From Isoetes taiwanensis (taxonomy: Eukaryota; Streptophyta; Lycopodiopsida; Isoetales; Isoetaceae), in NCBI GenBank assembly GCA_021234155.1, contig JAJEKV010000006.1:6359727-6423726 (forward strand): DNA of 64,000 bases. The letters run 5' to 3'. Numbering within the stretch: position 1 is the first letter of the stretch; each line of letters begins with the position of its first letter. Below, piece by piece: positions 2,491-52,941 of this stretch. A program made the translations under genes and the position numbers. Below the pieces are notes generated by a model that ran no database searches, was not told the origin of the DNA, and worked only from the letters and a program-made list of their open reading frames with translations.

Positions 2491-2521
2491 CGTGTGCTAT
2501 TTCATTTAGGGAGCATGTGAG

Positions 2522-12680: not shown

Positions 12681-12681
12681 A

Positions 12682-29350: not shown

Positions 29351-29486
29351 AAATTACTCGCCTCTACGGTTCCGGGCTTTACAAATAGAGGCACCTCAGA
29401 CAAGACAAAAATGAATGCCCCAGAGCTTGGGCCGGCTCGGGGGTAGATGTGGTTCCCCGCATTGTTGTATGTAGAGACTAGCGGGT

Positions 29487-29936: not shown

Positions 29937-29939
29937 AGC

Positions 29940-30955: not shown

Positions 30956-30959
30956 AAAT

Positions 30960-31275
30960 GTTTCCAATGGTTCCAATATTTTAATGGTTTTAAAATGTTT
31001 TTTAATGGTTATATGGTTATGATGGTTTTTTAATGGTTAATGGTTAATGGTTAATGGTTATAATATTTTAATGGTTAATGGTTTTAATAGTTTAATGGTT
31101 ATAATGGTTATATGGTAATAATGGTTAATGGTTATATGGTTATAATGTTTTAATGGTTATATGGTTTTAATGTTTTTAATGGTTATATGGGTTAAAAATG
31201 TTTTTAATGGTTCTATATGGTTTTAATGGTTTTAGTGGTTTAAAATGGATTTAATGGTTTTAATGGTTGTATATG
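30960..31275. repeat. TTAATGG/TATATGG minisatellite, copy B
   Basis: Counterpart of 2171-2490, differing mainly in T- and A-run lengths. Confidence 0.9.
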
Positions 31276-31315
31276 GTTTAAACGCGTGTGCTATTTCATT
31301 TAGGGAGTATGTGAG

Positions 31316-32145
31316 ATGAACAAAATGGAGGCAAGGAAGCCCAAAGACAGACATTGCCCTAGGCTCCAATGGAGGAAGATGGCACCTATTGTTCGCACCC
31401 GCAACAAGACGGTATTTGCAAGAGGGCATCATAACCGCAATTGATCCTTTGATAGTGGGATTGATGAAAAGGTCAGCATCATTTTGGAGTTGGCATTTGG
31501 AAGCTTCTTATCCAGTTGATACAATCATGTCCTGTGGAAGCTCTAGTGATAGCATTGTGTGCTCTAGGTTGTTGGAGTCCCAAACTCGGTTAAGATGGCC
31601 AATTAGATATATTACAAATATGAATGGTGAGAAGCCGGAAGGCCCTAATGAACTACATACCCCAAGGCCCAGTGCAGGCCATGTGGAAGATTTGGTGGTG
31701 GATGAGCATCCTTTGATCACAAGGAAGAGGCGCTTGTTTTTCATAAAAGGCAGCCAAGGGTGCCCAAGAGGCCTAGAAGTGACAAATATTTAGAAAGGAT
31801 GGAAAGTATGGCCCCAACCAAAGAAACCTAGAGGCAATTAGGGGACAAGAGTGTTGCAACCTAGATTGCCTGATCCAAGATGATCAATGGATGACCTAAT
31901 AAAAGGTCCCAATACATTTGACGTACCTTCAGAAAAGATAGGATTAATTTCATCTACTCCTTTGTGTAGAAATTCAGCTATGATGAAAAACACGGAAGGT
32001 TACTATATCAATTGAGGGGCCTGAAAGGTATGTATGAAAGCATTGAGATGGATTCTTGGCGTGGAAGCAAGTCTTCATTCTACGATCTTGTAGGGAGCAA
32101 GTTTAGGAAAGGCAATGTGTTATTCCAACATGGCAATGCACTCAC
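31316..32145 (+). pseudogene. Transposase-like (DUF7869-type) gene, 5' half, copy B
   Basis: Same gene as 2522-3354. The piece 31389-31793 is open across the point where copy A has a G-run stop and shows SFWSWHLEASYPVDTIMS, which supports one continuous original frame. The CCNLDC segment and the helix-turn-helix-like part (KSSFYD...) are damaged after 31800. It ends at CTCAC 32141-32145, where the TGTAACGG unit begins. In this block the gene's 3' half is 59859-60764. Confidence 0.6.
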
Positions 32146-33491
32146 AGGACGTATGGGCTCGCCGCTTAACCTCTCGAAATCGGAGATCCCATCGATCTCT
32201 ACCTGGATCTACTTAACCTCCGGGACTCAAGAAGTTCTTTACGCGATGCTTAGGTAAAGAATTGAATCTTTGTATATATTCTAAGGTCCCAAAGATATAC
32301 TTGCCATTGCTTAGCAATAATCCCGCACAACAAAGAATGTTCTTAATAATTATAGCTTCAAGCCAATATATAATAATAATAGTAAAACAAGGGTATTTAA
32401 ACCGGCAATCCACACTTCTGCTACTCGCTTTCAGGAAGCGGTTACTGAGCATCTCACCTGCCACACCATCAACTACTGGGTTAGTCACACGGGACTAAGT
32501 GGGAATCGGGGATCTAGGACATCTAGCTTCAACAATACAAGCATGCTAACCTAGAACAACAACCTAACCTTACCATAGCCTTGCCCCCAATCCAAGTAAC
32601 TAGTCCAAAGAAGCATGACCAATGCAACTTAATTCCAACAAAGAAGACCACATATATAATAACCAAGCAATCATAGCATCAACATTGCAATCAATATTCC
32701 TCCTGGTCGAAAGCAAGCTCAACTCGGGCCTTGACCAAGTGACATAGAGGCGGGGAACTATGTGTGTACACACCCATCCACGATCTCGTCCGGCGTGGAG
32801 GACCACTTAATCGTGCATGGCGTTGTACCATACCGTACTCGCAACCCGATGTTCAAATAATACCATTTACATAGCAATCGTTGCAATAACCACGAAGTCT
32901 ATACCATCGCACCTAGACTCCGCCCCAGAGGTCTATATCAAAGAGTTATACTACACATAGATCACAATACCATGAATTCCACCCAATATCAACTAGGCAC
33001 ATTTCCATATCAAATTTACCTTAGAAATTCCCATAATTTACACCTCATGCAACAAAGGAAATCCAAATATGCGGCCATTATAAACATTACTATCTCTACC
33101 ATGCAACATGCAATGCCCGGTGTAAGCAAAATACAACCTTCACTAATATCTTATTACTTTTAACTAGATCAATTTCCTTGAATTACTACTTATAACCTTA
33201 ATGACGGTGGCTTCCATAACCACGCTAACTAGTTTATTAATTCATGCATCCATTCCCAGCTTAGTAATACCCTAGCATATATTTTCCCTTTGCTAATTTA
33301 GTTATTTCCAAGGGTTTAGATATACAACTAGCTACCTTGTTAAACTACATCCCTGTGAATCATAAATACTTATCCATTAGCATACCCCTCCTTCACTTAA
33401 AAGCTGATCGAACGAGCTTCCGGCCGGTGTATGATTTGTATGGTGTTTCCTCTGCTTTTAGTTGATTGGAACCATGACAATCCCGCCCTCT

Positions 33492-34760
33492 ATGGCCACA
33501 CCGACAAAGATGCATGCGTTGAAGAAAAGAGCCCGCAATTTGGATACCTCGCCCCCATCGAGCAGGTATCACAAAGCTGAGGCAATCAAGGTTATACAGA
33601 ACAGCCGGTTCCCCGTGCTAAGCCGGGCAAGCTTGGAGGCATCACGGACCATCTCGCTGGCTCGTCAAGCAGCGCTTCTCCAACAAGGAGCCAATTTCCC
33701 TTTGGAAGTTCTGGGGATTATGATTGCAGGGGAGCCCAAAAGGCGATGACCAGATAAGAGGGGAGATACAAGCAAATAACGCAGCTAGTCACGGAGATGG
33801 GGCACCGCTTGGATAAGGTCCACCAGTGGATGGAAGACATGGCGCAAGCACCCGGCCGACATGAAGGGTTGCTCCAGCAGATTGTACAAGTCACAAGCAT
33901 GGCTGGTCGGATAGATGCTAAGCGAAAAAGGATGTGGAAGCTGGCTCGCTCCAATTCCTTGATGAAGCAAAAGACTGACAAAGCAGAGATGTCGAAGATG
34001 CTCACATAGAGAACCATATGGCCCACTTACAAAGAAGAGATGCAGGACCCTCGGATGGGTGCAACGAGTCCGTGAGTGCACCAGTGCACGCCCGGCAGCA
34101 CCCAAAGACCCCCATACCGAGGCCGAGGTGGCTCGGGGAATCAAAGTGTACCGTTGAGGAGCAAGACATCCGGGCCGCACCGCCTCAACCTTATTGCAGC
34201 GGGATTGCCGAGGAGCAAGGCGAGGATTTGCCAGGTAAGCTTACCACCCTGGTACTTGCAAAGCTCCAATTACAGTATTTGGTTATCAAGAGTCCAATCA
34301 GGGTCGGAGGACCGAGCATGAGACCTCGGCTAGTTAAGTTTGCAGTCTTGGATTGGGAGGCAAAATCTTTGTTGTTGCAACGCCCGGTCGCTTGGAAAGG
34401 TACGCCCATATACACGGATCTAGATCTCACCAAAACGCAACAAAAAGGAAAGAAGTTGGTCAAGATAAGAGAGATTCAACAAGCCGGAGGGGCTTTTGCT
34501 GGTTTGGTTAATGGCAAGATGAAGGTATATGTGCCTCCTCGCCGAATTAATTGTGGAGGCGGACTCCCAGCAACCGCGTCTGGGCGAGGCGGTCCAAGGG
34601 CACTGTGGCCCGAGGAGGCGTGGAGAGGGCGATTGAGGCCTTCCACAATCAAGTAACACATCCATGATCGTCCCGTGGCGAGGGCTGCCGAGTTATTCCA
34701 ATCCACGGCAGCCCCCGCACTCGTCAGATGGGTCCACAAATGCCAGCGATCGATAGGGAA
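33492..34760 (+). pseudogene. LINE ORF1, copy B, frame-broken
   Basis: Begins MATPTKMHALKKRARNLDTS. Several indels split it (for example near 33560, 33620 and 33960). The RRM-like half is still open at 34200-34520 (GEDLPGKLTTLVLAKLQ, KIREIQQAGG). It would encode the same RNA-binding protein as 4713-6041 if the indels are base errors. Confidence 0.7.
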
Positions 34761-34779
34761 AGTGTCTTCGCATTATTTC

Positions 34780-37700
34780 TGAATTGTAAGGCTTCCCGTG
34801 GCGTATGGGCAAAAGCTTGGAATGGGATCACGGCAGACATGGACATCGCTCTCTTCTATGAGGGAGACATGGGAGTATGAAGGGCATCGGGATACCCGGT
34901 ATTCGCAGGATATCGGCATTTCTCACTTGCTAATGACGCCATGGCGGCGTGCTGGTACCCGGGGAGTGGCTTGCTACTTTAGGGACATATAACATGCAAG
35001 ATCACACCCGGAAGTCCGGATGCATTTTAACCGCTACATGTGGGTAATGGTATTAGAAACTGGTCATGTCCCATTGTTTCTTGCTAGCTGCTATATTCCC
35101 CATGCAGGCTCTAAGTTCTACCGGGTACATGATGCGCACACAGGATGTCCGGATGCCGTATAGGGAACTGTATGGTGACATAGACCGCTATAGACAAAGA
35201 GGGGACAGGTGTTTTTGCTTGAGATTTCAATGTTCAGACGTCAGCAGCGGTTCGCGATCGGTGACCTTCCAAGGTGACGATAATGCTGATCCGCTTTGGT
35301 TTGAGATGTAGCTATTCAGACGCCACGGCACTCCTGGATATAGTGGCTAGACCATTTGGCAGCGTGATGGTCCGGCTCGCCGTGTTTTGACATGGTAATT
35401 TGTAATGGTATGCGTGATGGCCACACCTTCGGGGGTGTTACTTGCGTGGGAGTGATAGGCGGATGGGGAGCTAGTGTGTTGGATTACTTTCTACCGCTCG
35501 TTAGCGTACCCGACATGGTTACACACTTCTCCATTGGCACAAGCAATGGGGGATGAGGAGGTTTCGACCAGTCACTACCGGCTTTATCCGCTGGAATTAG
35601 GAGCACTCAATAGTGGAGACACCGCAAAGGAGCGTGGAGGGTTACCATACATCCCACTTCTCGGGCGCGTGGGGCGATGAATGCGTGTTGGTCGCGAGAG
35701 TTATAGGGGTTTGATAAGCTTCTACACAATTGCAAAGGCAGTGTTTCTTTGTGAGGGCCCCCCAGTAGGCCGGGAGGCTTCCTTTGCGAAAGGGCCTCAA
35801 GGAGGGACCGTGCATTTTCCCCCCAGAACTTCGTGGTTTGATGTTGATTACAAGGCTCTAAAGAGCCAACAAGGCTGGTCATAGATCCACAGTTGCGCCC
35901 ACAAGCCCTACCAAGACTATAAAGCTCTTCCTAAAAGCCAAGAAGGGGAGATACATGGCGTAAAACCTGGGCGCTGTTTGACATGCTCATGGCATGCCAA
36001 AAGCTTTTTGGCTTAAGGTGTTATACAAGAAGCGCCAGTGGTAATGTAAGTGTGGAGCAATGGATGCACCACTAGGGAGTTATACGACCTCGTGAGCTAA
36101 TGCCGTGGTCCCATCGGTAGGAGAGGTCTTTGCGGCTCACGAGAGGATGTCCAACAGGTCTCGAACATCCGGGCGAATAGCAAGGCAAAAAGGATTTCAC
36201 GAGGGCTGGTAAAAATGTTGAAATAAATTGGCCCATCCAGGTAGGGCCCCCGGGACGTGATCATTAACCGTGCTCGAAAGAGGGGCCCCCGTGGATGGTT
36301 AGTAGGTTGTTCTACATTCATAAAAGGGTATTATCACGGATGAGCCCGTAATTACGGATGATTATGGTAAGCTCACCGTTTGCAAAGCTCCCTCGGCAGG
36401 GTGGTGGAGAAGAAACTCACTGGCGGGCCGAGGGAAGGAGTCGGCAATTGGTAAGCTGAGGCTAGCCCTACCACTCCGACCGACCATATCTTCACTTTGA
36501 GAGTGTTGATGGAGTGCAAGCGAATGCTTGTGACTTGTATTGTCGCTTGTAGATTTTAAGATCGCATATGATCTTGCCCCTGGAGATATGTTGTGGCCGA
36601 GAGGTTGCAAGAATTGCGAGTTCCACAGAGTTGCGGAGATAATGGTGCACCGGCTTTTATGATGGGATTTATCTTTTGACCGCCTTATGAAGATTCCAAG
36701 GGTAGCTAGCACTATAGGGAGTTAGCGGTGCTGCCCGTTGTCTCCAACGCTTTTTGGGTTGTACATTGATAGCTTGAGACGTGGATGCAAAGACCATGGG
36801 GGGAGCTCGGTGCAATTATCTCGATGCGACCTCCGTGGAGCCGGCCATCAGATGCGATGATGTAGCTTTGCTAGCCCACACGGCCAAAGAAAGATGCGTT
36901 AGATTTTGGATGCCCTCAGTGGGTTCCGTGGGGCAACGGGAATGACAAAGAACTTGCACAAAACTAAGCTTCTCGCGATCCCGTCCTCGCAACACCCTAT
37001 CCTGAGTTATATTACAGGACCGAGGAAGTGAGATGGTGCGAGTTCAAGTATCCGGGAATTGATTTCACTACTAACATGCCGTGGGATGAGTGTGTGGAGA
37101 GGAGAGCCAGCAAGTCAGTCGGAAGGTTTTATATGCAAAAAAAACATGTTGCGGATAGATCTCTCGGATCGGGCGAGGAAGACACACCGCTTAGGGCTTT
37201 GGTCGGTTTCTGCCGCTTTATATGGGGTGGAGGTTTGGGGCCCAAAGCGGTTAGCAAAATAATGTGGGATAGGTTGGAAGGTGCGAAAGCTTTCTTGACA
37301 TATAGCTTGGGGAGTGAAGGACACGTACCATATCGGTTTTGTTGTATGAGGCGGGGTTCGCCTTTTACAAAAGATACGCTATCTTGCAGCATCTTACTTG
37401 CTTCCATAAGGTGGATGGGATGGATGAGCATCGCTTGCCCCCACTGAGTCGCGGTTGTTAACGCAGCCCCTGATGGTCAAGAGGGTATGGCATGAAACAT
37501 CGTAAAGGGATGGTTTAGAAGGTGGTCTATGGATTACCAAATGATGGTGGCAATCGTCGCATTCGATGCGAGAATGGCAATTGGATCGGGCTATGCTGCC
37601 ACCCCATGGGATGCCTCTACTCTTGCAAAGCCCAAGACAGAGCACTATCACGCCTCCGTTAATCCCTACTTTGAGCATGGACCCCATCCAGTACGAAAGC

Positions 37701-37985
37701 ACACATCTGTGAAGAAGCGGAGAGCTATTGCGCCATATGGCCGGGTTCCCATTACTCCCCTGGTGAAACAGTCGATGGGGGGTGAATGGCGTGCACGCGG
37801 ATCCCGGGGAGGAGAGGATATGTCGGTGTTGTGAGATGCACGCGTGATAGAGGATGACACCATGCCCTCCGGCTTGCCCGGCCTTATGCCCATGTCCGAA
37901 AGCGAAGGCACACCGATCTTTAGATGCTTTCGGAACGCGCCCTTACATCGGGCCACTGCGCATCACCTCCTGCGGTAGCGCGACC
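34780..37985 (+). pseudogene. LINE ORF2, copy B, frame-broken
   Basis: Counterpart of 6042-9254. It aligns along its length, but no piece exceeds 140 codons. The longest (37028-37447) matches the post-palm region of copy A. The RT Asp-Asp site near 36857 reads GCGATGATGTAGCTTTGC, with the frame disturbed upstream. Confidence 0.7.
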
Positions 37986-38239
37986 GGGAGCTTACATCCT
38001 GCCAATTTCGGCACGTCGGACTTGCTCTTATGAGGCATGGTATTTGAGAGCCTACTTGTTAGGGTTTTTCCTCCCAAGTGGGGGTTTTTCATCCCGGTAG
38101 TAGGGTTCTCTTGTCTCTGATTACATTGTTTGTTTTGGTGTTGGGGTTTTGGCTTTTTGCCCGTTTCTCTGCATGTCTCAGTCTCATAGGCCTCGGCCTC
38201 CTGGACGTTAAAATAAACTTCCTTCCTTCCTTCCTTCCT

Positions 38240-38927
38240 AAATAAATCACTAGCCCAATTCCTTGATCCAAACCAACCCTTAATATTTTATTCCAAAACC
38301 TATAACCTTAGCTTTTCCTTAACTTTATACTTTATTATTACCTTACTAACTAAATATTAACATAGTAGAGAATATTAAATCGGTTAATATGCTCGCTATC
38401 CATAGGGTCTTTAAGAGATCATGAATAATCAATTCAATTCAATTCAATTAACCATGCATGCCTATTCATGACCATGCTCATATGATTTAACTCCAAGTTT
38501 ATACTACATTTAGAGCAATTGTTATTAAATCAACACACTATACAAACACTAGAAAACCCTGGTGTAAAGGCTTGATCCCCACCTTGAAATCCCGCTTGCT
38601 CATACGCACCCCAAAGAACACGCCCTGCAATATTGCTCACACCCTGCTCCTTCAGCAATCCGGCTGCAATCTGCCTTCCAAAATGTTCCACCATCACAAA
38701 AAAGACTTCTTTCCCATGGAAAACTCCTTCCCAAGAAATCAAGAATAATATTGTTGCACTTATATAACCTAGCAATGCCCTTGCATGCATGCATACATTG
38801 CATGCATGGACACATTGCATGCATGTATTCCTAGCACATAATCATTTATTTTACTTTTGAAAATGCACTCTTGTATAATGGCAACGTTACTTACATCTTA
38901 GTGTTGGTGCTAGGTTGCTAGGTCCGT
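38240..38927 (+). repeat. 3' part of the TGTAACGG unit, tandem copy 1 (B)
   Basis: Counterpart of 9516-10205. Nearly identical except at CAG/CTG positions such as 38600-38632. Confidence 0.8.
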
Positions 38928-39591
38928 ACTTAGACTTTAATCCTAAATAAATCACTAGCCCAATTCCTTGATCCAAACCAACCCTTAATATTTTATTCCA
39001 AAACCTATAACCTTAGCTTTTCCTTAACTTTATTATTACCTTACTAACTAAATATTAACATAGTAGAGAATATTAAATCGGTTAATATGCTCGCTATCCA
39101 TTAACCATGCATGCCTATTCATGACCATGCTCATATGATTTAACTCCAAGTTTATACTACATTCAGAGCAATTGTTATTAAATCAACACAGCCTATACAA
39201 ACACTAGAAAAACCCTGTGTAAGGCTTGATCCCCACTTGAAATCCCGCTTGCTCCTTCATGCACTCCCAAAGAACACTCCCGAATATTGCTCACACCCTC
39301 GCCTTCAAAGAATCCTACCGCAATCTATCGCCTTCCAAAATGTTCCACCATCACAAAAAAGACTTCTTTCCCATGGAAAACTCCTTCCCAAGAAATCAAG
39401 AATAATATTGTTGCACTTATATAACCTAGCAATGCCCTTGCATGCATGCATGCACACACTGCATGCATGGACACATTGTATGCATGTATTCCTAGCACAT
39501 AATCATTTATTTTACTTTTGAAAATGCACTCTTGTATAATGCCAACGTTACTTACATCTTAGTGTTGGTGCTAGGTTGCTAGGTCCGTTAT
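38928..39591 (+). repeat. 3' part of the TGTAACGG unit, tandem copy 2 (B)
   Basis: Counterpart of 10206-10872. Begins ACTTAGACTTTAATCC. Confidence 0.8.
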
Positions 39592-39766
39592 TGTGATTTA
39601 GATCGCCGAGTTGATCCTCCCGCAACTTCGGGATCTTGTCAAAACTTGCAAAGTGACTAGATCTAGGTTGGTATAACTTTACAAAACAACATTGGTGAAG
39701 AATTGAATCTTCTTACTCATAATAATCAGAGATCAACTATAGTCTATCCATTATCAAATACAATAT
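39592..39766 (+). repeat. Left end of the second, diverged unit (B)
   Basis: Counterpart of 10873-11045, interrupted after AATAT by the complete Ty3 element. It continues at 52942. Confidence 0.6.
39762..39766 (+). repeat. Target-site duplication AATAT (left)
   Basis: AATAT before the 5' LTR. The identical AATAT follows the 3' LTR at 52937-52941. Confidence 0.9.
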
Positions 39767-41405
39767 TGTGACGGTCCAGGGGAATATACGCCATAAATAC
39801 GTATATTCCCGGATCCGGTTCACCATACAAGCCTATCTTCATAGCCTTGTATACCATAGATTGTGGCACTAGGGGGCATGGCTAAGTTATTCTCATAACT
39901 TAGCCAACCATAGGTTAAGCCATTATCCACGTGGCCTTAACCTATTGGGGCACCGCCACACAGGACTCACCCGATTGGTGCCACGTGGCATCCTAGATGG
40001 ACCTAACTTATATAGGCACAAACCCTAACCCTAGACCTCTTTCCAGCCCTAGCACCCAGAGACTCACCTACTCGTTCGAAAACCCGTTTCGAACATCGTT
40101 TGTTGTGGCATAGGCTGGTGCAGCAGCCCCAGCAGGGTAGACTCGTTCTTGGAGTAGGAGCAGCAGCTTGTGAGTCGAAGACCATGGAGGCGCCTTGGAT
40201 GCGAGGGGAGAGCACCCGGGCGTATGTAGAATAGTAGTCGCGATAGCTTATCTGGAATTAGCATTCCAGATATGCTAGTATCTTGTATCTAGAGTAGAGC
40301 CATCCTAGAACCCATATTCAACATCTTGAACCCTAATCAAGGAACCCTAACTATTAGTTAGATTTGTATGATTAGGTTAAGATGTTCTTCTTATGATTAT
40401 TCTCATGATGTGATGATTATGTGATGATGGTTGATCATGTTTGCTCCTCTTGTATTGGGAAGGGGGTAGAGACCTAGAGCCATATGTAGTATGCTCCTAG
40501 AGTAGATCCCTTAGTTCCTATTAGTCATGTGCTGTGCATAGGAGCCCACCGTGCTATTGAGGCTATGATATGACTCAACACCATATAACGGGGCTAGAGG
40601 GAAAAGGGAGGGAGGATCCCCGCCGAGTGGGGGCTTCGGGGATCCCATAGTATGCTGGAGCTTATGGCCTGGCCACTGTGCGGGCCGAGCATGGGTCCGA
40701 CACCTCCGGGGCAATGGTGTTGCCACGCCTCTCGAGAGCTGCAAGTGTTGGCTTGGCTCGCTTTGGGGGTTCACTGGGTTCTTAATCGCGGTGTCGCCAC
40801 GATTCTCTAGCCGCCCACGGCACCTCTAGATCCTGGAAGGGGAGATGCAACCCTTCCCGCCTCATCGGACAGGGAGATGCAACCGGAGTAGTCCCGGCGG
40901 GTGATGCCATGGGATTGCGATCCCGGAAGGCTAGAGTCCCGTCGAGAGCCTGATCTAGCCCATCCGCAAAGTATGCAATGGGGAGGGGCGGATGGAGTGG
41001 TCAACCCTAGCCATTGTTCTATGCCAGCCCTCGCCATTGCCATGACTCGGTCTGCTCTATCTTGAGGCCTAGCCAGTCAGTCATCCTCCTTGCGAGTCTG
41101 AGCCGGGGTAGGAGCTCTCATGTCTTATGGTTCGTGATTATCATCTTTGCCTTGGATTATGAGTGATGCACTACCCTTCGAGGTAGTACTTGTATATGTT
41201 GATGCTAGTTCTGACGTGTTATCGCTTCAGCCCTGTTATAGGAGCCCATAGGGGAAGGGCGCGCCAAGACACCTTCAGTTTCCTTCCCCGCACTAAGAGT
41301 CACCTCGAGTGCTGGGGGTAGACGGCGGCCCATCGTGGCTGAAATGATGGGGATTTCCTGCCGAGTGTACGGCTGGGCGCCGTACGTTTAGCAGGGAGCG
41401 TCACA
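39767..41405 (+). mobile_element. 5' LTR of the complete chromovirus
   Basis: TGTGACGGTCC...GAGCGTCACA. U3 holds two hairpins: GGAATATACG/CGTATATTCC at 39781-39809, and GGCTAAGTTAT/ATAACTTAGCC at 39880-39905. It also has the G-box palindrome TGCCACGTGGCA (39979-39990) and TTATATAGG (40008-40016) as probable TATA box. Telomere-like ACCCTAACCCTA follows the TATA box. Many differences from the 3' LTR are at CAG/CTG sites, so LTR divergence should not be used for dating without re-sequencing. Confidence 0.92.
39979..40016 (+). promoter_or_regulatory. LTR promoter core: G-box palindrome and TATA box
   Basis: TGCCACGTGGCA (a CACGTG G-box, known binding core of plant bZIP/bHLH factors) lies 17 bp upstream of TTATATAGG. 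The same arrangement occurs at 11256-11293 and 51502-51539. Confidence 0.65.
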
Positions 41406-41406
41406 A

Positions 41407-41418
41407 TGGTATCAGAGC
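41407..41418 (+). promoter_or_regulatory. Primer-binding site, tRNA-iMet
   Basis: TGGTATCAGAGC, one base after the LTR end. Exact complement of the plant initiator-methionine tRNA 3' end. Confidence 0.93.
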
Positions 41419-41980
41419 GATGTTCTTGGTTGACCAAGAACTAGCACTGACCATAACCATGAAGTAGTCTAACAGGCCTATAGGGGTGTGAAATAAACAT
41501 TTCCACCATTGAACCGCGAAAATTGGGGAAAAAAATTTTCTCCTAGGTAGTGGGTCAGGAATTAGGCTAAGTGTTAGACGAAGATTTGAGTGAGTCAAAC
41601 GAACCTTCTAGTAAATTTGGAGTGAAAATTATGCATCTGCATCAAATTTCACCTAAAATGGGTCGAAGAATCATGCCAATCGGAGACCCAGGTGAAAAAT
41701 GGCGCAAATTCATAAATTGCACTTCGAACCATTAGGAAAATTCGAAAATTTAAAGATAATATCAAATTAATATAGGTTAATATATACATTAATAGTTAAA
41801 TAATTAATAAATAGGGTGTAATTAATAAGGGGGGCTAATAAATAGGGGCAATTATGGTAGGAGAATATTCCCAGGGACCCTCCTTTTTAAATATCTGACA
41901 CCTCATTTTCTCTCTCCAACCCTTCACCCCCAACTCTCTCTTGCTCAGCCCTTCGTCACCCATTTTCTGAACCATAAGAT

Positions 41981-43058
41981 ATGGCTCGCACCAAACAAAC
42001 CTACAGGAAGCCTGGAACAAGACCTACCCTCTCCATGGCGCAGCAAAGCAGGCGACATGTGAAGAAGATCCCGAGCACCTCCGACCCAAGAAAGGGGAAG
42101 AGGAGCTTCCCCCCAGCAGCAGCAGCAGCAGCGAAGCCTCCTTCCATGACGCCGAGGAGAGTCCCAAAGCCAGCAGCCTCCGCCGGGTGTACTGTCAGGG
42201 ACTGCCAATCTCCGCCATTTCGACCCTGACACCGAGGTGGAAGAAGAGGTGGAGGAGCAGGTGCAGCAGCAGGTGGAGGAAGCGGGGCCTTCAGTGCCCA
42301 AGAAGAAGGGAAAGGAAAAAGTAGCAGAGTGGCCGGAGGAGAGGGCCGCTAGGAAGAAAAGGGAGAGAGAGAGGGAGCTGAGAGAGCAGGAGAGGCGGAC
42401 GAAGAGAAGGAACGACAGGCCTCGCCGGACCGTCGTTATTCAAGAGCCCCGGCCGGAGGAGGAACCTCAAGTGGAGGAAGAGGAGGAGGAGGGGCAGCAG
42501 GATCCCGATGCTAGGCCACCCTGCCCTAAGTGGCCGGAACCACCTAAGGTGGTGAAGAAACAAAAGGTAGGGGAGCGGGCATTCGCGCTCCAGCAGGACC
42601 GGGAGTTCAAAAGGAAGATGGTGGCATACAAGGAGTACCTTCGTCATTGGACGAGGTACAATGAGTGGTATTGCCAGCCAGAGGTGCAAATAAGTGGTGG
42701 GCGGCAGTCAAGAAGAACCAGCCCAAGCCACCCCCACCGGACCGAAAACCCAAGAGGGTTCACCACGGGCCTAACAAAGACGCACGCCGGGTTTTAGGAG
42801 ATTCGGCACTTTCAGATGTGCACGAATCTCCTGATAAGGAAGGCGCATTTTGAGCGTCTCCTTAGAGAGATTTTGCAGCAGTTCCGGACCGATTATAGGG
42901 TTACCCCTCTAATGACCCGGGCTCTGCAGGAGGCCGCCGAAGCAGAGCTGGTGCAGCTCTTCGAGGAGGGAAACCTCTGCGCTATCCATGCTAAGCGGGT
43001 AACCCTCATGCCGAAGGACATCCACTTAGCACGGAGAATCCGCAGGGAGAGGCCCTAG
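41981..43058 (+). CDS. Histone H3-like protein encoded by the retrotransposon (frameshifted copy, ~358 codons)
   Basis: Starts [16 protein letters not shown], the canonical H3 tail opening (Ala7 to Tyr). A Lys/Ala/Pro linker follows ([16 protein letters not shown]), then an acidic then basic insert of about 200 residues ([37 protein letters not shown]). A conserved block [21 protein letters not shown] and [14 protein letters not shown], like H3 KKPHRYRPG, come next. 42798-43055 encode the histone fold: [69 protein letters not shown], ending RRIRRERP. Loop 1 has canonical H3 length, not the longer CENH3 loop. Total length is ~2.6 times H3. Frames change near 42200, 42690 and 42795. These may be base errors, because the block A copy reads differently there. 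Lying between primer-binding site and gag, it is part of the element, not a host gene beside it. Confidence 0.88.
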
Positions 43059-43866
43059 GCCTCAAATTTTGTAAATTTTGTAAATTTTGTAGAAGAATTA
43101 AAATCTTCATGTAATTATGTTTCTTATTAATATAAAAGTCATTTTCCTCTATAATTAGAAAAAAAAAAATGTTGTATGCTTGAAATGTAGGAAATAGAAC
43201 CCAATTGTGGTAGAATTCTTCATAGCATGTCTAGAAACACCCTAGAAATCATGACTACAACAAAATTTTGGCAAAAAAATCATCAAAATGCAAAATTGGG
43301 CGGTCGGTGAGACCGCGCCAATGGCCTCTCAAGGCCCGACGCGGGCGCCAAGCATGGATTCACCCGCCTACCCCCAAAAACATGCTTTTTGGTGTCAGTT
43401 TTGCTCAAAATAAGTTGCTAGTTAGGTTAGAATTGGCCCAATTAGCCATATTAGCATCTTCAAATTCCCTAAATTGACCAAAAATTGGCCCAAAACAGGC
43501 CAACCGGGTGAGACCGCGCCAAATGCGTCTCATACCCATGACGCTGAGGCCATCCGCGGATTCACCGAGGTCAGCCATCTTTGGCCCAAATTAGCCAAAT
43601 TTGATCCAACAAATTGCCATGTAGTGTTTCTTGCCTTGTTTTGCTTAAGTTTGCACTTCATGGTAGTTCATTTGGACACCCAGAGCCATAGAACCAAGGT
43701 CGTCTTGGGTAGGCACCTTTTTGCACGAACCCCGAGGTCACCCATAGTCTATAAAAATAGGCCCCATTTGTCATTTTTCTTCCTACGTAATGCCCCCGCC
43801 CCTTAGGCGATTTTCTCGATCCTCCACCGATCTTTGCAAGCCATTTTCTACACCCTTTCCTGCTCA
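43059..43866 (+). other. Spacer with H3-gene 3' end and TATA box for the next ORF
   Basis: No gene. AT-rich 3' sequence (repeated TTTTGTAAAT, then TTATTAATATAAAAG) lies directly after the H3-like stop. Two imperfect repeats around GGTGAGACCGCGCC (43295-43372, 43505-43572) follow, then CTATAAAAATAGG (43749-43761), 106 bp before ATG 43867. This suggests an internal promoter (inference). Confidence 0.55.
43749..43761 (+). promoter_or_regulatory. TATA-like box upstream of the second ORF
   Basis: CTATAAAAATAGG, conserved in copy A (15012-15023). The unrelated minus-strand element has TTTATATAAA at the same map position. Confidence 0.5.
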
Positions 43867-45404
43867 ATGGCGCCCAGCAACTTTGAGAGATGGTACAATG
43901 CTGCCAGCCATATCCATGTGCTTCCAGTAGATCAAGCCTTCTCCGTGTTTGATCACTTGTTTGATCTTCACGCAACTTTGACTAGAACACCCTACTACAC
44001 GGACATTATGTGCCAATATGACCAGCAGGTCCTGCCTTGGGAAGTTAGACTGCCTCCTAGGGGAGGGAATTGGGTTTCCCTTGAGACACTTACCCAAGCC
44101 TTAGGTCGAGAGTTGGCAGGATCCAAAGGCAAGAAGCAGCTATGGGATAGGACTAGGACCATGCCCGATTACATGACCTGCAGACATAATAGGCATAGGT
44201 ACCTTTCAAATTTCGCATGGCCCTTGCCCTCTTCATGCACTATAAGTCAATCAACAAAGTAGGGGAACCCTCTGTTCAGCCCTTAGACTTAGCGCCACTT
44301 GATACCCGTAGAGCCCAGGATCAAATCCTGAATATAGAATCCTCCGCCTACGAATACTATGGCACGACGTCAGGGGCACCATCTCTGCAGATCCATGAAG
44401 ACTATGAGCAGCTAGGGGAGCAGAACCCAGAATGGGAGAGCAGGGAGGCAACAAGAATGAGGAGGTATGCGCCGAGGCATGACGACGACGCGAGAATGTG
44501 CCTAATGCACCCACCGGTCCGGCATCACAGCCTTTGTCGCCGATAGTCATCGACGGGGAGGAGTACATTTTGCAAATGACATCCTCAACTTGTCCCATCT
44601 TGTGAAACAGGGTCTCCAATCGACAAGCTCTTGGGCATGATAGCACACCTGAAGAGCAATGTACATCATCGACTACTCATACCAGAGATTCCAAGGGAGT
44701 CGGAGAGACACTCTTATGCTTTGGGAGATAATGTCGATATAGCAGCCTCATCGCCAGATTAGGGAGATCTATCGACAGCGAGGAGCCTATTATCTCGCAG
44801 GAGGAGTTCCAAAGACATACTGAGCACACTCTACAAAACCAGGGAAGGGCCCAAGCTCAAGCCGACCAGTTCGAGCCAGAGCATGAGGGAAGGGTCCAGC
44901 AAAGATCAACTTGACAACGCAACCAAAGATGTGGAGGGATCATGAAGACCGATGGCAGTGGATGCCTACGGTGAAGCAGCTTAGAGGAAGGGCACTGGAT
45001 CGCGAGGCGTAGGGAAGGGCGCGACACTTCGCTACTATCTTCCAGCCCTCAGCCAGGGGCAAATGATAGTCTTCCACAAGGAGTTCAGCCCAAGGGGGGA
45101 AGAATCCGTGGCACTTCTCATAGCACTTTCGGGCTTCGGGCAGCACTCGAAGATATACGCCCATGCCGACCACATTATTCTTTTCAACAGGGCAGTCGCG
45201 CTCCATTGCCTCGACTTTGCGAGAGGGCATCTTAGGGATGCAACACTTTCAGTGGTAGCAAAGAATAAAGACTGTAACTCCCGCAACCAGGAGATGGCCC
45301 GAGCACTTGAAGGAAGATCGACGAGGAACATCTTGCGCAACCTCGGCAAAGGCCTCCGATTCAGGGATGTCAAGAACTTCTTCAGGCTTTCGGGAGGCCA
45401 CTGA
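43867..45404 (+). pseudogene. Second ORF of the chromovirus, function unknown
   Basis: From ATG 43867 the frame reads MAPSNFERWYNAASHIHVL...PPRGGNWVSLETLTQALGREL. One shift near 44210 leads to ALALFMHYKSINKVGEPSV...YEQLGEQNPEWESREATRMRRYAP. After a poorly readable, Gln/Glu-rich middle (44560-45050), 45063-45404 reads VFHKEFSPRGEESVALLIAL...NILRNLGKGLRFRDVKNFFRLSGGH and stops. A gap of some 200-300 bp with AT-rich sequence separates it from gag. I recognise no domain. It could be an extended Gag N-terminus, a captured host protein, or an element-specific accessory protein. Confidence 0.5.
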
Positions 45405-45604: not shown

Positions 45605-46862
45605 TGTATTGATGATCAATCCTTGCAGCAAGGAACTCAAGTGCAGGATCTCAAGATCAGCACCGACCACGCAATTGGGTACCAAGGAACTTGTTTGGCG
45701 TGAGAACAGAAGACCTTGGAGGATATATGTCACTGCAGGCAGCAACGAAGGTTGGTGCAGATGAGGAATCAGATGCAACACCTCATCAACTGGGCGACAC
45801 CTCTCATGAATGCACAGGAAGATGGTCACCCACCTCCACCTTGTTTCCCGGGTGGTGACGAAGTCCCTCAGCAGGAAGGGGAGGGCAACCAGGGGAACCT
45901 CAGGGATAGGAGAAGGAAGAGGAGAACCAGGAGTCCATCATCATCTAGCTCTAGCTCATCAGACAGCTCTTCCAGTGAGGACAGCTCTAGCTCCGACAGT
46001 CAGTCTGGCACACCTAAAGCAAGGAAAAGAGCAAGAAAGACAGATGACTATCAGAAAAATGTGGATAGTGCTATGAGCAATGTATGGAAGACAAGGAAGC
46101 TGGGCCAGTTTTCAGGGAAAGACAGGTCAGGCATGGAGGCTGAAGCATGGCTTGATGAAATGGAAGAATTTGGCAACTCATACGGTATGAAAGACAAGGA
46201 CATAGGGAAAGTTGCTACAGCTAACCTTATTGGACCTAAGAAGGATCCGTGGAAGGGATATGCTAAGTCCAACAAGTCAAGAGGAATAATTGCAGGTTTA
46301 AGACCTTCAAAGAAGGCTTTCCGCATAAGCACTATGTGCCAAGGTCTCATACTAGTAGACAGATTCAGCTTTTACTGAGTTGAATCGGGTAGCTTATCGC
46401 TGGCTAAGTATACCGAAGAATTTATGAGGCTCAGCTGAATGTTCCCTGGAGTCTCGAGAGGGCAAGCCGTGGATACTTACATTGAGGGGTTGAAACAGCA
46501 AATATCAAGAGGCTTGTTAGAGCAATCAACCCGAAGTCAGCTTGAGCCGAAGATAAAGCTATAAGTTTGGAGGAGGCACCAAAGAACTCCAAAGAGAAAG
46601 CAATCAACCTTCGGGGGTAAGAGTTCAGGGCGATCGTGGGGACAATATCGGGGTAAGCAATCAGCAGCTACACCATCAGGGAGTCAACAGCAAGGTAAGG
46701 GTCAGAGCAAAGCTTTTGGGGACCGTAAAGCCACGTAAATGCATCAGGGGGCAATGCTCTTAAGCCGCCTCCTAGACACCTGCCAAGGAAAAGAGACAGA
46801 ATGCATTGAGAAGAAGTTATGCTTCAGTGCTTCCGGCCGGGGCACCGACACATGATTGTCCA
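45605..46862 (+). pseudogene. Gag polyprotein (Ser-rich N-terminus, capsid, CCHC zinc knuckle), frameshifted
   Basis: The best open part is 45716-46378: a Gln/Met-rich start, RDRRRKRRTRSPSS, then a Ser/Asp/Glu tract of about 25 residues, then KLGQFSGKDRSGMEAEAWLDEMEEF, a typical Ty3 capsid start. After shifts, 46405-46500 gives YTEEFMRLS and GQAVDTYIEGLKQQISRG, the capsid C-terminal domain. 46810-46860 gives, over two frames, CFQCFRPGHR(T)HDC, a CCHC zinc knuckle. The start codon is uncertain. Gag assembles the particle and binds the RNA. The Ser-rich acidic/basic insert is unusual for chromovirus Gag. Confidence 0.75.
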
Positions 46863-49303
46863 TTCGTCATGCAAAAAAGCCCTTGGCGAACTCTTGGATT
46901 GGGACTCCCCAACAGAAGCGGACGAGGACGATGACCAGCAGGAGGCCCAGGACTTCATAGATGGTGAGTGTCACATATGTGCAAACATTGAGTCAGGTGA
47001 TATAGAGAATCAGTCAACTGTCATCGCGGCTAATGGGATCATAGATAGTAATCCTTATGTAGTCCTCATAGATACAGGTAGCTCTCATAATTTTGCATCT
47101 CCTAGATTGGCTGCTCTAATGAAGAACAAGGTATTGAAGTCTAAGCCAAGGCCAGTAGCTATGGCAAACGGCGCCATTCGGCACACTAAGGGGAGGAGGA
47201 TCACCTTTGACATAGACCTTAGTGGGGCTAAGTGGCCGATGGGAGCAGAAGTCATGGACATCGGAAGATATGATCTGATAGTGGGGATGGAATTTTTGAA
47301 GCCAGCCAAAGCCATGATTGATTGCGACCGAATGAAGTCACCATGACGGCACCGCATCGCAAAGAAGTTGATAGTGAAAGGTAAGAAGCTAGATTCTCCT
47401 ATGCAGTGTATTTCTTTGAAGCAGCTAAGGAAGAGTATAGAAAGGAATAAGGTGGATTACATCTTGAGGATGGAATCAGTTGAGCCAGGCAAGCAGGATG
47501 GAAGTGACCCAAAGGGAAATCAGCCCCAAGGCAGATAGCAAGGCTTATTTCAGAGTTCAAGGATGTATTCCCCCAAATCCGGCAGTTTTCACCTTATAGG
47601 GGTGTGGAATGTGAGATCACATTGGCTCCGGATGCGAAGCCTACCAGTAAGGCGCCATATAGAATGAGCACCCCAGAATTGATTGAGCTCAAGAAACAGC
47701 TGCAGGAATTGCTCGAGCTTGGATTTATAAGAGCAAGTGTGTCTCCTTTCGGAGCACCTATACTCTTTGTGAAGAAGAAAGATGGGAGCTTAAGAATGTG
47801 CATAGACTATCGCCAAACTTAATAAGCGCATCGATAAAGAACAAGTATGCATTGCCAAGGGCGATGATCTAATGGACCGCCACAAGGAGCAAAGGTATTC
47901 TCTAAAATTGATTTGAGGTCGATACCATCGATAAGAATAAAAGAAGAGGATATCCATAAGACCGCTTTCGAAAAACGCGGTATGGTCACTTTGAGTTTAC
48001 AGTAATGCCCTTTGGACTATCGAATGCTCCAGCAACGTTTATGCACCTCATGAACGACATCTTCAGAGACTTCTTGGATGAGTTTGGTATTGTCTTCTTC
48101 GACGACATCCTAATCTACAAACAAGTCCCTTGAGGAGCATTGTCGCGATCTCGGAAAGTATTAGAGAAGTTGAGACGCCATCGGTTGTATGGGAAGCTCT
48201 CTAAGTGCCACTTTGCAACAGGTAGAGGGGAGTACTTGGGGCATGTAGTAACATCCGAGGGAATCTCCACAGATCCATCTAAGATTGAGGCAATAGTTGA
48301 TTGGCCAGCTCCAAGGAATGTGGCAATGAAGTAAGAAGCTTTCGGGTTGGATATTACGAAAAGTTCGTGAAGGACTTTGCTAAGTGGGCGCCCCCTCCGG
48401 CTCGGACCTCACTAAGGCCAAGAAGATTAAGGATTGGGCTAGCCATTGGTTAGAGAAAGTCCAAGCTTCTTTTGAGAAGCTTAAAGAGGTTTTAACAAAC
48501 AGCACCGCTTGTTGTTCTTCCGGATCCGAGTAAAGATAAGTTGGTAGCAAAGATGCAAGCAAGATAGCAACAAAGGCAGTCTTGATGCAAGAAGGAAGGG
48601 GTAGTCGCCACGACTCAAGAAGATGAACGACGCCGAGCAACGCTACCCAACCCATGATCGAACCGCTAGCCATTGTCGGGGCATTGAGGATATGGAGGCA
48701 TTATCTGCCGGGAAGGAAGTTTCGCCAGATAATCGATCACCGTAGCCTTCAAGATCTTTTCACCCAGCCACTCCTCAACTTAAGGCAAAGGAGGTGGATG
48801 GAATTCCTTGAGGAGTATGATTTTGATATTATATATAAGCCCCGGTAAGCTTAACGTTGTACGCCAGATGCCCTCTCCAGAGACCATTTCGCACAAGGAC
48901 GCATTGTAATGCGATTTCCACTCTTTTCGAAAGTGAGTTTGGCAAGAAGATTGAGGAGTCCTTGCCAACGGATGTGGACTTCAAGGAGGTATGGGAAAGC
49001 CTTTCCAAGGAAGCCGTAATGATAAGGAGCGGGAAGCCTTCAAGCATTATAAGAAGGAAGGCAACTGTTGTATCACAAGCATAAGTTGTGTGTGCCCTCG
49101 AATCATCAGGGGTAAGGAAGCTAATTCTTCATGACACACATAACAGCCCAATAGCAGGGCATGCTGGCTTCATGAAGACCTATTTCAAGATTCGAAGTAG
49201 CTACTTCTGGCCAGGAATGAAGAGGCAGATAGCTGCATATATTCGGGATTGCCGCTTGTGTCACAGACCAAAGTGGAGCAACTTCGATTCCGTGTGCTCT
49301 TGA
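46863..49303 (+). pseudogene. Pol: aspartic protease, reverse transcriptase, RNase H, integrase zinc domain (frameshifted)
   Basis: 46930-47346 holds the protease: VVLIDTGSSHNFASPRLAAL (DTGSS active site) and YDLIVGMEFL. 47604-47822 is RT N-terminal ([41 protein letters not shown]). 47950-48120, one frame over, gives [25 protein letters not shown] and FFDDILIY, the catalytic aspartates. 48140-48334 gives RRHRLYGKLSKCHF and EYLGHVVTSEGI. 48410-48850 is RNase H ending EEYDFDIIYKP. 49088-49303 is the HHCC domain of integrase (HDTHNSPIAGHAG, SYFWPGMKRQI, CRLCHRPK). Gaps and shifts at 47345, 47822, 48335 and 48845 break the frame. Confidence 0.9.
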
Positions 49304-49312
49304 GCCATTGGG

Positions 49313-50485
49313 GTGCCAAATGCAAAGTGGGAGGTCATAAGCATGGATTTCATCACAGGTCTCCCTAGAACTCTTCGAGGCAAGGATGCATTGATGGTTG
49401 TCGTAGATAAGTTATCTAAGATGGCACATTTTGTGCCTTGCAAGACTACTGACACCGCATTAGATACTGCCAAGTTATTTGTAAGGGAGATTTTCAGACT
49501 CCATGGCATGCCTCGGGAGATAATATCTGATAGAGATTCTATGTTTATGAGTGCCTTTTGGCAGGATCTCTTTAGCACCATTCAGACGAAGCTCTCCATG
49601 AGCACGGCATATCATCCCCAAACAGATGGCCAGACGGAAAGGACGAATCGGATCATTGAAGACATGCTTCGGAGCTATGTGTGGAATAAGCAATCCAAGT
49701 GGGATGAGTACATCCACTTGGTGGAATTCGCCACAACAAGCAGCCAAGCAGAGTCATCTCAGATGTCTCCTTTCATGGTGAATTACGGGTACCAGTGCTT
49801 AACCCCGGATACCTGGCACAATCCTGTGTCCAAGGTAGAAGTGTCCCAGCAGATGTTAGGGGATATGCAGCAGCTAGTCGAAGAAGTAAGGGGTTATTTA
49901 TTGGCAGCAAGAAGTCGGCAGAAGAGCGTAGCCGACAAGCACAGGATCGTAAGGGAATTCAAAGCAGGCGATAGCGTTTGGTTGAAGATAAAGGTGAAGC
50001 AAGCCAAGCTGCGGATTGGGAGCTGCAAGAAGCTTGCCCCTAGGTGGGCTGGGCCGTTCAAGATTTTGGAGAGAGTGGGCTCTCAAGCCTACAAGTTGGA
50101 TCTTCCAGCCCATCTTAAGGTTCACAAGGTCTTCCACGTAAGTTTATTAAAAAGGCACAATCCTAACCCTGAGGAGGTTTTGGATACTCCAACCTTGTTG
50201 GAAATGACGGAGGAGCAAGTAGAAATAGTGCCTGAATTGCTTCTTGATAAGTCATTCAAGAAGACTAGGAGGTCTCAGTTCCTCCAGTATTTGGTTAAGT
50301 GGAAGCACTTACCCGTGGAAGATGCGACATGGGTATTGAAGCAAGACTTGGAGAAGCAATACCCAGAGTTTATGAAGGAGTTTGATGGGCGAGTCGTCTC
50401 CGACTTGGTCAATTCCGACTTGCCGTGGTTAGCTAGTATGTTGTTAGTTAGTTTTAAGCCCGGGCGCATGCATTCTAGTTACTAG
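49313..50485 (+). CDS. Integrase catalytic core and C-terminal chromodomain (open, 390 codons)
   Basis: An open frame without internal stops (the first ATG in it is 49313). The DDE core is complete: SMDFITGLP (first Asp), IISDRDSMFMS (second Asp), and Glu in AYHPQTDGQTERTNR. MSPFMVNYGYQ and SVWLKIKVKQAKLR, then LAPRWAGPFKILERVGSQAYKL, form the GPF/Y-type domain, followed by KVFHVSLLKRH. Residues ~320-365 (SQFLQYLVKWKHLPVEDATW) are a chromodomain with two aromatic cage positions (Tyr, Trp). In this family the chromodomain steers integration to histone-marked chromatin. Here the same element also supplies an H3-like protein. Upstream pol is frameshifted, so expression as written is doubtful. 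Confidence 0.93.
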   Translation: MPNAKWEVISMDFITGLPRTLRGKDALMVVVDKLSKMAHFVPCKTTDTALDTAKLFVREIFRLHGMPREIISDRDSMFMSAFWQDLFSTIQTKLSMSTAYHPQTDGQTERTNRIIEDMLRSYVWNKQSKWDEYIHLVEFATTSSQAESSQMSPFMVNYGYQCLTPDTWHNPVSKVEVSQQMLGDMQQLVEEVRGYLLAARSRQKSVADKHRIVREFKAGDSVWLKIKVKQAKLRIGSCKKLAPRWAGPFKILERVGSQAYKLDLPAHLKVHKVFHVSLLKRHNPNPEEVLDTPTLLEMTEEQVEIVPELLLDKSFKKTRRSQFLQYLVKWKHLPVEDATWVLKQDLEKQYPEFMKEFDGRVVSDLVNSDLPWLASMLLVSFKPGRMHSSY

Positions 50486-51291: not shown

Positions 51292-52936
51292 TGTGACGGT
51301 CCAGGGGAATATACGCCATAAATACGTATATTCCTGGATCCGTCACCATACAAGCCTATCTTCATAGCCTTGTATACCATAGATTGTGGCACTAGGGGGC
51401 ATGGCTAAGTTATTCTCATAACTTAGCCAACCATAGGTTAAGCCATTATCCACGTGGCCTTAACCTATTGGGGCACCGCCACACAGGACTCACCCGATTG
51501 GTGCCACGTGGCATCCTAGATGGACCTAACTTATATAGGCACAAACCCTAACCCTAGACCTCTTTCCAGCCCTAGCACCCAGAGACTCACCTACTCGTTC
51601 GAAAACCCGTTTCGAACATCGTTTGTTGTGGCATAGGCTGGTGCAGCAGCCCCAGCAGGGTAGACTCGTTCTTGGAGTAGGAGCAGCAGCTTGTGAGTCG
51701 AAGACCATGGAGGCGCCCGGATCTGGAGGGAGAGCACCTGGAGCAGGTATGTAGAATAGTAGTCGTGATAGCTTATCTGGAATTAGCATTCCAGATATGC
51801 TAGTATCTTGTATCTAGAGTAGAGCCATCCTAGAACCCATATTCAACATCTTGAACCCTAATCAAGGAACCCTAACTATTAGTTAGATTTGTATGATTAG
51901 GTTAAGATGTTCTTCTTATGATTATTCTCATGATGTGATGATTATGTGATGATGGTTGATCATGTTTGCTCCTCTTGTATTGGGAAGGGGGGTAGAGACC
52001 TAGAGCCATATGTAGTATGCTCCTAGAGTAGATCCCTTAGTTCCTATTAGTCGCGGCCTGTGCATAGGAGCCCACCAGGCTATTGAGGCTATGATATGAC
52101 TCAGCACCATATAACGGGGCTAGAGGGAAAGTGGAGGGAGGATCCCTGCCGAGTGGGGGCTTCGGGGGATCCCATAGTGGGCTAGGCTTATGGTCGGTCA
52201 CTTCGTGTGGGCCGAGCATGGGTCCGACACCTCCTGGGGCAATGGTGTTGCCCTGCCTCTCGAGAGCTGCAAGTGTTGGCTTGGCTCTCGTTTTGGGGGG
52301 TTCAGTCGGTTACGAATCGTGTGTCGCCACGATTCTCTAGCCGCCCACGGCACCTCTAGATCCTGGGAAGGGGAGATGCAACCCTTCCTGCCTCATCGGA
52401 CCAGGGAGATGCAACCTGGAGTAGTCCCGATGGGTGATGCCATGGGATTGCGTATCCGGAAGGCTAGAGTCCTGTCAGAGCCTGATCTAGCCCATCTGCA
52501 AAGTATGCACAGGAGGGGCGGATGGAGTGGTCAACCCTAGCCATTGTTCTATGCCAGCCCTCGCCATTGCCATGACTCGGTCTGCTCTATCTTGAGGCCT
52601 AGCCAGTCAGTCATCCTCCTTGCGAGTCTGAGCCGGGGTAGGAGCTCTCATGTCTTATGGTTCGTGATTATCATCTTTGCCTTGGATTATGAGTGATGCA
52701 CTACCCTTCGAGGTAGTACTTGTATATGTTGATGCTAGTTCTGACGTGTTATCGCTTCCGCTGTTATAGGAGCCCATAGGGGAAGGGCGCGCAAGACACC
52801 TTCGTGTTCCCTTCCCGCACTAAGAGTCACCTCAGAGTGCGGGGTAGACGAAGGGCCCATGCGGTGGCTGAGCCGGATGGGGGATTTCCTGCCGAGTGTA
52901 CGGCCGGGCGCCGTACGTTTAGCAGGGAGCGTCACA
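51292..52936 (+). mobile_element. 3' LTR of the complete chromovirus
   Basis: TGTGACGGTCC...GGGAGCGTCACA, with the same two hairpins (first at 51306-51334), G-box palindrome (51502-51513) and TATA box (51531-51539) as the 5' LTR. In several places it agrees with the block A LTR against the block B 5' LTR, for example TTCCTGGATCCGTCACC. Confidence 0.93.
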
Positions 52937-52941
52937 AATAT
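52937..52941 (+). repeat. Target-site duplication AATAT (right)
   Basis: Matches 39762-39766. Confidence 0.9.

Follow-up and report, generated by a model that had tools for sequence, protein, structure and literature searches.

Few host proteins are as conserved as the core histones, which are also the main substrate of transposon silencing. Divergent N termini on an H3 core are known from CENH3 and other divergent H3 variants, and in CENH3 loop 1 is in addition longer than in H3.

Capture of H3 by transposable elements has been described for fungal hAT DNA transposons of Pyrenophora tritici-repentis, Pseudocercospora fijiensis and relatives, for which the accessible parts of two reports (PMC3538342, PMC6710886) give tens to hundreds of H3-like copies; those of P. 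tritici-repentis look intact and have ESTs, and those of P. fijiensis are all inactivated save the original gene. Plant Ty3/gypsy chromoviruses, as characterized in the available portions of two surveys (PMC6317226, PMC2864245), possess LTRs, a primer-binding site (PBS), protease, RT/RNase H and integrase in that order, and a C-terminal chromodomain. Orchid Ty3/gypsy elements carry an acquired m6A RNA demethylase domain, and the accessible part of that report (PMC9289625) describes the purified protein as active.

Here we describe a Ty3/gypsy chromovirus of the lycophyte Isoetes taiwanensis with an H3-like gene ahead of gag, located in a window of 64,000 nucleotides (the whole stretch of DNA that was analysed). 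Like the fungal hAT elements, as far as the accessible text describes them, this element carries and multiplies an H3-like gene; the fungal carriers, however, are DNA transposons with terminal inverted repeats, whereas the Isoetes carrier is an LTR retrotransposon of a lycophyte, in which H3 is joined to long additional domains, stands at a constant position ahead of gag, occurs in two divergent families and is under selection inside the element. It has direct LTRs, a 5-bp TSD and an integrase, and neither a hAT domain in the nine window frames scanned nor terminal inverted repeats of 60 bp or more were found. With plant chromoviruses, as far as the surveys cover them, it shares the LTRs, PBS, protease-RT/RNase H-integrase order and C-terminal chromodomain, to which it adds the H3 gene and a second open reading frame (ORF2) ahead of gag; compared with the orchid demethylase, in the available description, both the gene and its role are different. 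The element H3 resembles CENH3 in its divergent N terminus on an H3 core, but it is retrotransposon-borne, multi-copy and without a loop-1 insertion, its core aligning gap-free to H3 over 86 columns.

No report of H3 in an LTR retrotransposon was found among the titles and abstracts listed by literature searches of open-licence PMC papers. The word "histone" occurs once in the main text of each chromovirus survey, for plants (PMC6317226) and for non-seed plants (PMC2864245), both times concerning what chromodomains bind, and it is absent from the main text of the I. taiwanensis genome paper (PMC8566536) and from the accessible text of the I. sinensis genome paper (PMC10541799) and of a review that covers extra ORFs of LTR elements in plants (PMC7264820). 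Thus, we conclude that H3 capture by transposable elements was known before, from fungal hAT elements, and that a carrier of the LTR-retrotransposon kind is new as far as these sources reach.

The chromovirus and its histone gene

The element measures 13,170 bp from LTR to LTR and forms a single unit, with the parts given below; the main family named there is a set of related loci treated in the following section.

39762-39766, no strand: 5' TSD AATAT, identical to the 3' AATAT
39767-41405, + strand: 5' LTR, TG...CA, 1639 bp, aligned to the 3' LTR
41407-41418, + strand: primer-binding site, exact motif TGGTATCAGAGC, starting just past the 5' LTR
41981-43058, + strand: H3-like gene, with a charged insert between MARTKQT tail and H3 core; frame-shifted in the window copy
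42798-43055, + strand: H3 histone-fold core, 86 codons, open; PF00125 3.1e-26
43867-45404, + strand: accessory ORF2, broken in the window copy; C-terminal part conserved in 16 of 20 main-family loci
45704-46378, + strand: first open piece of gag, with a related gag at main-family loci (15 of 20)
46810-47346, + strand: aspartic protease piece; RVP_2 2.2e-9
47508-47819, + strand: RT N-terminal piece, by similarity to main-family loci
49304-50485, + strand: integrase with C-terminal chromodomain; rve 9.5e-10, SH3_Tf2-1 4.2e-23, Chromo PF00385 3.5e-11
51292-52936, + strand: 3' LTR, 1645 bp, aligned to the 5' LTR
52937-52941, no strand: 3' TSD AATAT, identical to the 5' AATAT
11046-14323, + strand: 5' LTR, leader and H3 gene in a second version; the locus is duplicated here, ahead of the gap at 15062

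Features of a Ty3/gypsy chromovirus were present, namely an LTR pair with TG...CA and TSD, a PBS, which we take to resemble the end of the initiator-Met tRNA, the protease-RT/RNase H-integrase order and a chromodomain, which also lies at the integrase C terminus of main-family locus L012 (2.7e-8). The RT piece had no Pfam match of its own, and was 66-76% identical to eight of nine loci and 48% identical to the ninth; the adjoining part of locus L024 matched RVT_1 (4.3e-23) together with RNase H. Gag of L011, a relative of the window element, matched Retrotrans_gag at 9.8e-5, slightly below the Pfam cut-off, and two pieces of the window ORF2 that were scanned gave no Pfam match. More RT pieces, in other frames and judged by eye, extend to about 48900. 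With the LTRs, the AATAT TSDs, the PBS and the downstream domains all located, the H3-like gene lies between the 5' LTR and PBS on one side and gag on the other, inside one TSD-flanked element, as the original prediction had placed it.

The histone gene begins with MARTKQT at 41981, and its core (42798-43055) is followed by a stop codon at 43056-43058. The core matched the Pfam Histone profile PF00125 at E = 3.1e-26 (92.5 bits, against a curated cut-off of 26.4), the core of a further copy, L031, reached 98.2 bits, and solved H3 structures matched residues 1-85 of the 86 at E of ~1e-29. The nearest solved relatives are H3: among the best 60 of 177 matches, 59 were named H3 and one was a "Histone domain-containing protein". 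The predicted MARTKQT start and terminal H3 fold are thus confirmed by coordinates, by Pfam and by solved structures, and the histone profile search that had been proposed, in which the absence of a hit would have counted against the prediction, gave a strong match. The protein departs from the canonical form of H3 (~136 residues, tail 1-44) in being far longer, with the tail largely replaced. A charged insert of ~200 residues had been predicted between tail and core; the size was roughly right, but a single readable protein is found only in other copies, since the window gene is split between frames (41981-42196 and ~42689-42793 in one, 42186-42683 and 42798-43055 in another). Frame disruption likewise breaks ORF2, gag and pol of this copy.

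Part of this breakage may be technical. Positions 34-15045 of the window duplicate 28842-43783, flanks included, at 88.7% identity, the first version stopping just before a single N at 15062. The alignment of the two LTRs (1665 columns) contains 43 mismatches and 46 gap columns, in clusters with long identical runs between them. We read the clustered LTR differences and the duplicate as signs of error-prone long-read assembly. The assembly that holds the window has 1,658,258,908 bases in 1110 contigs; the accessible text of the genome paper gives 1.66 Gb in 204 scaffolds and 909 contigs, from Nanopore and Illumina data (PMC8566536). The assembly probably retains a single locus in two versions, seen as the duplicated 15 kb. 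The second LTR and H3 gene in the window were therefore rejected as an independent copy and carry no independent evidence, because the same insertion site is present twice.

Other sequences were seen around the element. A repeat of ~0.65-0.7 kb stands in tandem directly before it (38236-39590, and again 9512-10874) and recurs inverted at 57916-58595. On the minus strand, 18391-19032 is a remnant of a different integrase, whose identity to the element's integrase is 29-36%. Two ORFs, 4698-6041 (447 aa) and 6958-7788 (276 aa), look LINE-like by eye and had no Pfam match at E<=0.01.

Copies, forms and origin of the element histone

A search of the genome with the window H3 core, in which the best 150 of 8599 first-look candidates were scored, gave at least 150 copies including the window's own, 84-100% identical and spread over 84 contigs; nine of the 150 cores contained a stop codon. 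The window integrase gave at least 105 scored copies including itself, the other 104 at 89-97% identity. At least 18 same-strand pairs of H3 and integrase, the window's included, were found on 15 contigs, where 0.05 would be expected by chance; three opposite-strand pairs within 20 kb were left uncounted. H3 lay upstream of the integrase by 5972-9266 bp in these 18 pairs, and by 6433-6542 bp in 13 of them. Because both lists hold best matches only, 18 of 105 is a lower bound.

Linkage was also assessed in copies chosen through the integrase: for 20 of the other 87 integrase copies, 1.2 kb at the expected H3 position was read regardless of H3. Core matches, whole, in pieces or in several frames, were present in 10 of the 20, and the core was not found in the stretch read in the other 10. 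Among the latter, L048, L053 and L054 had the 5' part of the H3 gene, L042 and L043 had element sequence beside the H3 gene, L057 had pol, and L046, L049, L051 and L060 had nothing similar in the 1.2 kb.

A second set of carriers came from a genome search with PF00125 (best 150 scored of 8705 first-look candidates). The 15 best matches cover the profile nearly end to end; eight of them were fetched and are ordinary host H3 genes, distinct in sequence from the element H3. Dozens of lower-ranked matches have long open frames, and the first 20 by rank with frames of at least 350 aa were taken as the main-family sample. All 20 have a stop-to-stop frame of 367-494 aa with the H3 core at its C terminus, and in 14 the family start codon is present, giving proteins of 400-459 aa. 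Element genes follow downstream within the 10-kb stretch in 19 of the 20 (ORF2 in 16, gag in 15, protease in 11, RT in 9 and integrase in 2); L015 had none of the five there. The exact PBS motif occurs in 15 loci, 2.8-2.9 kb into the stretch and 657-713 nt ahead of the start position (measured in L009 from its second PBS). Carriers L012 (TSD CAATC) and L024 (TSD TCGGA) are each bounded by an LTR pair and a TSD.

The histone match, the recurring arrangement of H3 and integrase and these two further LTR/TSD-bounded carriers support the central claim of the original prediction, that a Ty3/gypsy chromovirus captured H3. The outcome named as fatal to it, an H3 gene in one copy only and misjoined to LTRs, is contradicted by the collinear pairs on 15 contigs and by the borders of L012 and L024. 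A lineage of Ty3/gypsy chromoviruses has almost certainly taken up a host H3, which it retains between PBS and gag as an accessory gene.

The histone occurs in quite different forms. In window-family proteins, about 250 inserted residues separate MARTK(Q/R)T from the core; of 11 relatives fetched, 8 have an uninterrupted frame of 362-372 aa from MARTK to the end of H3, and the remaining three have shorter frames and no in-frame MARTK. Main-family proteins begin with an N domain of ~215 residues; a linker that is acidic or rich in Gln then leads to a remnant of the tail near STGGKS and to the core, and none of the 20 loci retains the tail's K4 end. L028 represents a third form, with an N domain 32-39% identical to that of other main-family members and a core that branches first in the main group. 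In a structure model of a main-family protein, residues 10-215 of the N domain mostly had pLDDT of 70-90, falling below 60 at about 111-130, and the H3 core was placed with low confidence; Foldseek returned no solved fold at E<=0.001 and did not recognise the H3 core itself, so no structural claim rests on this model. The N domain had no homolog at E<=0.001 among 559 candidates from the protein collection. ORF2, searched with the L017 sequence, had none at E<=0.001 among 7997 word-sharing candidates, in a collection that may omit records of this genome, and its structure model was unusable (mean pLDDT 32.8). Between ORF2 and gag, a short acidic frame (YEERIT...YGQRYGEYPER...EDANDH) is common to divergent families (L011:6494-6868, L028:6630-7241); in L011 it had no Pfam match, and it is possibly an exon.

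Multi-copy H3 families with long N extensions, here F1, F2 and F3, also occur in other sources, with up to 201 members per cluster. They account for 43, 33 and 3 hits, respectively, among 120 listed of 461, a tally that omits nine hits whose core the pattern missed as well as hits with short N parts. Our guess is that they are retrotransposon genes, perhaps of other plants. No intact F2 was present among 98 scored F2 matches in the Isoetes genome, which comprised ordinary H3 genes, main-family-like cores and two longer matches containing stops (C1038:6404750, C1061:3336086). Two proteins from other sequence assemblies, P0116 and P0080 (335 and 343 aa), combine a charged N-terminal part with a C-terminal H3 core. 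A phage or IMG/VR origin was rejected: the window H3 gene had no match among phage records, and P0120, a long-tailed H3 protein from another source, had no relative in IMG/VR.

In a tree of H3 cores (53 rows, 86 columns; identical rows and the divergent P0118 dropped), the main family lay on one side of the branch joining it to host H3 (98/85), and the window family and F2 lay together on one side of another (96/90). Constraining the main and window families together gave a borderline p-AU of 0.052, and with 86 columns two captures are neither shown nor excluded. The predicted capture therefore stands in amended form: the genome holds at least two quite different H3 forms, and possibly more than one capture lies behind them.

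Selection and substitutions in the core

Median dN/dS in the window family was 0.028 for the core and 0.142 for tail plus insert (8 copies, 28 pairs); in the main family (19 copies, L028 left out) it was 0.044 for the core (170 pairs), 0.161 for the N domain (145 pairs) and 0.199 for the linker (151 pairs). Copies of both families were picked through their H3 score, which biases these core values low and leaves the other parts unaffected. Two integrase-chosen copies, L041 and L050, had a full in-frame core. For L041 against 11 window-family copies, core dN/dS was 0.06 at a dS near saturation (2.09), and for L041 against L050 it was 0.07 (0.042/0.56); L050 against the window family was saturated. 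Given core values of 0.03-0.07 in the tested samples, the histone appears to be kept by selection, and such conservation of the core speaks for a function exerted via the histone fold. The roles first proposed for the protein, namely nucleosome entry, genome packaging or the marking of target sites, are candidates for that function. On these sequence comparisons, the element histone has probably been held constant through long element evolution.

The window-family core differs from host H3 at 28 of 86 positions, 26 of them in all 11 copies, with changes that include K56M, K79R and S87L/V89T/L90R; the main-family core differs at 15 of 86, including L60P (18 of 19 copies), S87F (19 of 19) and G102E (19 of 19). 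By the position lists that we assume for the H3-H3' interface, DNA contacts and chaperone motif, 11 of 13 interface positions are kept in both families, DNA contacts are kept at 10 of 11 positions in the main family and 9 of 11 in the window family, and chaperone-motif positions are kept at 1 of 3 and 0 of 3, respectively. With contact and interface residues mostly kept and others changed, this is a histone that could still assemble but whose outer surfaces are altered. In the eight intact window-family copies, A1-R2-T3-K4-Q5-T6 is kept in seven, the exception being L032 with R as residue 5, and all eight retain K9, while position 10 is altered in all eight and position 7 in six.

Possible roles of the element histone

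Our best overall explanation, which we consider probable without regarding it as firm, is that the captured H3 is kept as an accessory gene and acts as an element-made nucleosomal H3 variant. The protein would fold as H3, pair with host H4 and be deposited in nucleosomes as an element-made variant; that it acts through the nucleosome or through H3-H4 assembly seems, from its sequence, somewhat better than an even chance. The surroundings of K9 are altered, K56 and K79 are lost and the 87-90 motif is changed, which together suggests that chaperones and modifying enzymes handle this H3 differently and makes counter-silencing our first choice of purpose, although a tentative one: the changed tail and surfaces of the window family (the K9 neighbourhood, K56M, K79R, 87, 89 and 90) would make chromatin harder to silence. 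Alternatively, the insert or N domain may bring element proteins, for example the integrase complex, to chromatin.

A different reading is that the H3 gene was misjoined to LTRs. The window is indeed poorly assembled, with 15 kb duplicated, N and clustered LTR differences, but collinear pairs recur on 15 contigs, LTR pairs with TSDs bound carriers elsewhere and the eight host H3 genes are distinct; we rejected this artefact, whose probability is negligible. The gene might instead be a passenger, a host gene carried along and amplified with no function of its own, as with the RIP-inactivated H3 copies of P. fijiensis hAT elements. The accessible text on that case (PMC6710886) does put functionless captured H3 on record, and some Isoetes copies have decayed, as seen in the nine cores with a stop and in several integrase-chosen copies in pieces. 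We regard a passenger as very improbable, in view of the low core dN/dS, which extends to the two testable integrase-chosen copies, the identical position of H3 in two divergent families and the open frames of 362-372 and 400-459 aa from a start codon.

Two further possibilities give the protein a function outside stable nucleosomes. As a basic, nucleocapsid-like protein it could bind element RNA or cDNA in virus-like particles or the pre-integration complex, a role to which a highly charged insert and a gene upstream of gag in the same element would be suited. Packaging of this kind would not need so fixed a core, however (dN/dS 0.028-0.07, against 0.14-0.20 elsewhere), and the main family carries a folded-looking domain in front rather than extra basic sequence, so we think this role quite unlikely. 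The protein might also be a decoy or dominant negative that occupies H3 chaperones or SUVH-type H3 methyltransferases and weakens silencing without lasting deposition. Retention of A1-T6 and K9 beside altered positions 7 and 10, together with the loss of K56 and K79 and the changes at 87, 89 and 90, would fit such a decoy, but the DNA-contact residues, unnecessary for a mere decoy, are largely kept, and we judge it unlikely.

If the element histone is a nucleosomal variant, as we prefer, it may have a partner within the element. The integrase chromodomain apparently, in our comparison with HP1, is without the first and last aromatic cage residues, like type II chromodomains. For type II chromodomains the binding partner is unidentified in the available part of the plant survey (PMC6317226), and one candidate for this role, where the element's own chromodomain is concerned, is the H3 that the element encodes. 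A more far-reaching version, which is speculative and which we hold to be improbable, is a private chromatin state in which element H3 on element copies or target sites would resist H3K9-type silencing and dock the element's integrase by its insert or N domain; such captures would perhaps have been repeated in plants, with F1-F3 as further cases.

Conflict between element and host over the nucleosome would have a direct test case in a retrotransposon with an H3 of its own that it encodes, keeps and diversifies, and the apparent retention of this histone by selection hints at elements that build some of their own chromatin. Natural H3 variants under selection are available here as well, with an insert of ~250 residues, K56M, K79R and altered chaperone positions. 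In such genomes, element and host histones may be mixed in H3 counts and in H3 ChIP.

Every leader between PBS and H3 start that could be measured contains upstream ATGs. The window leader has 7, those of five window-family copies have 8-10 and those of 14 main-family loci have 5-9; L009, for which a distant PBS had been taken, is not counted. With 5-10 upstream ATGs per leader, simple scanning to the H3 start is doubtful unless the leader is spliced.
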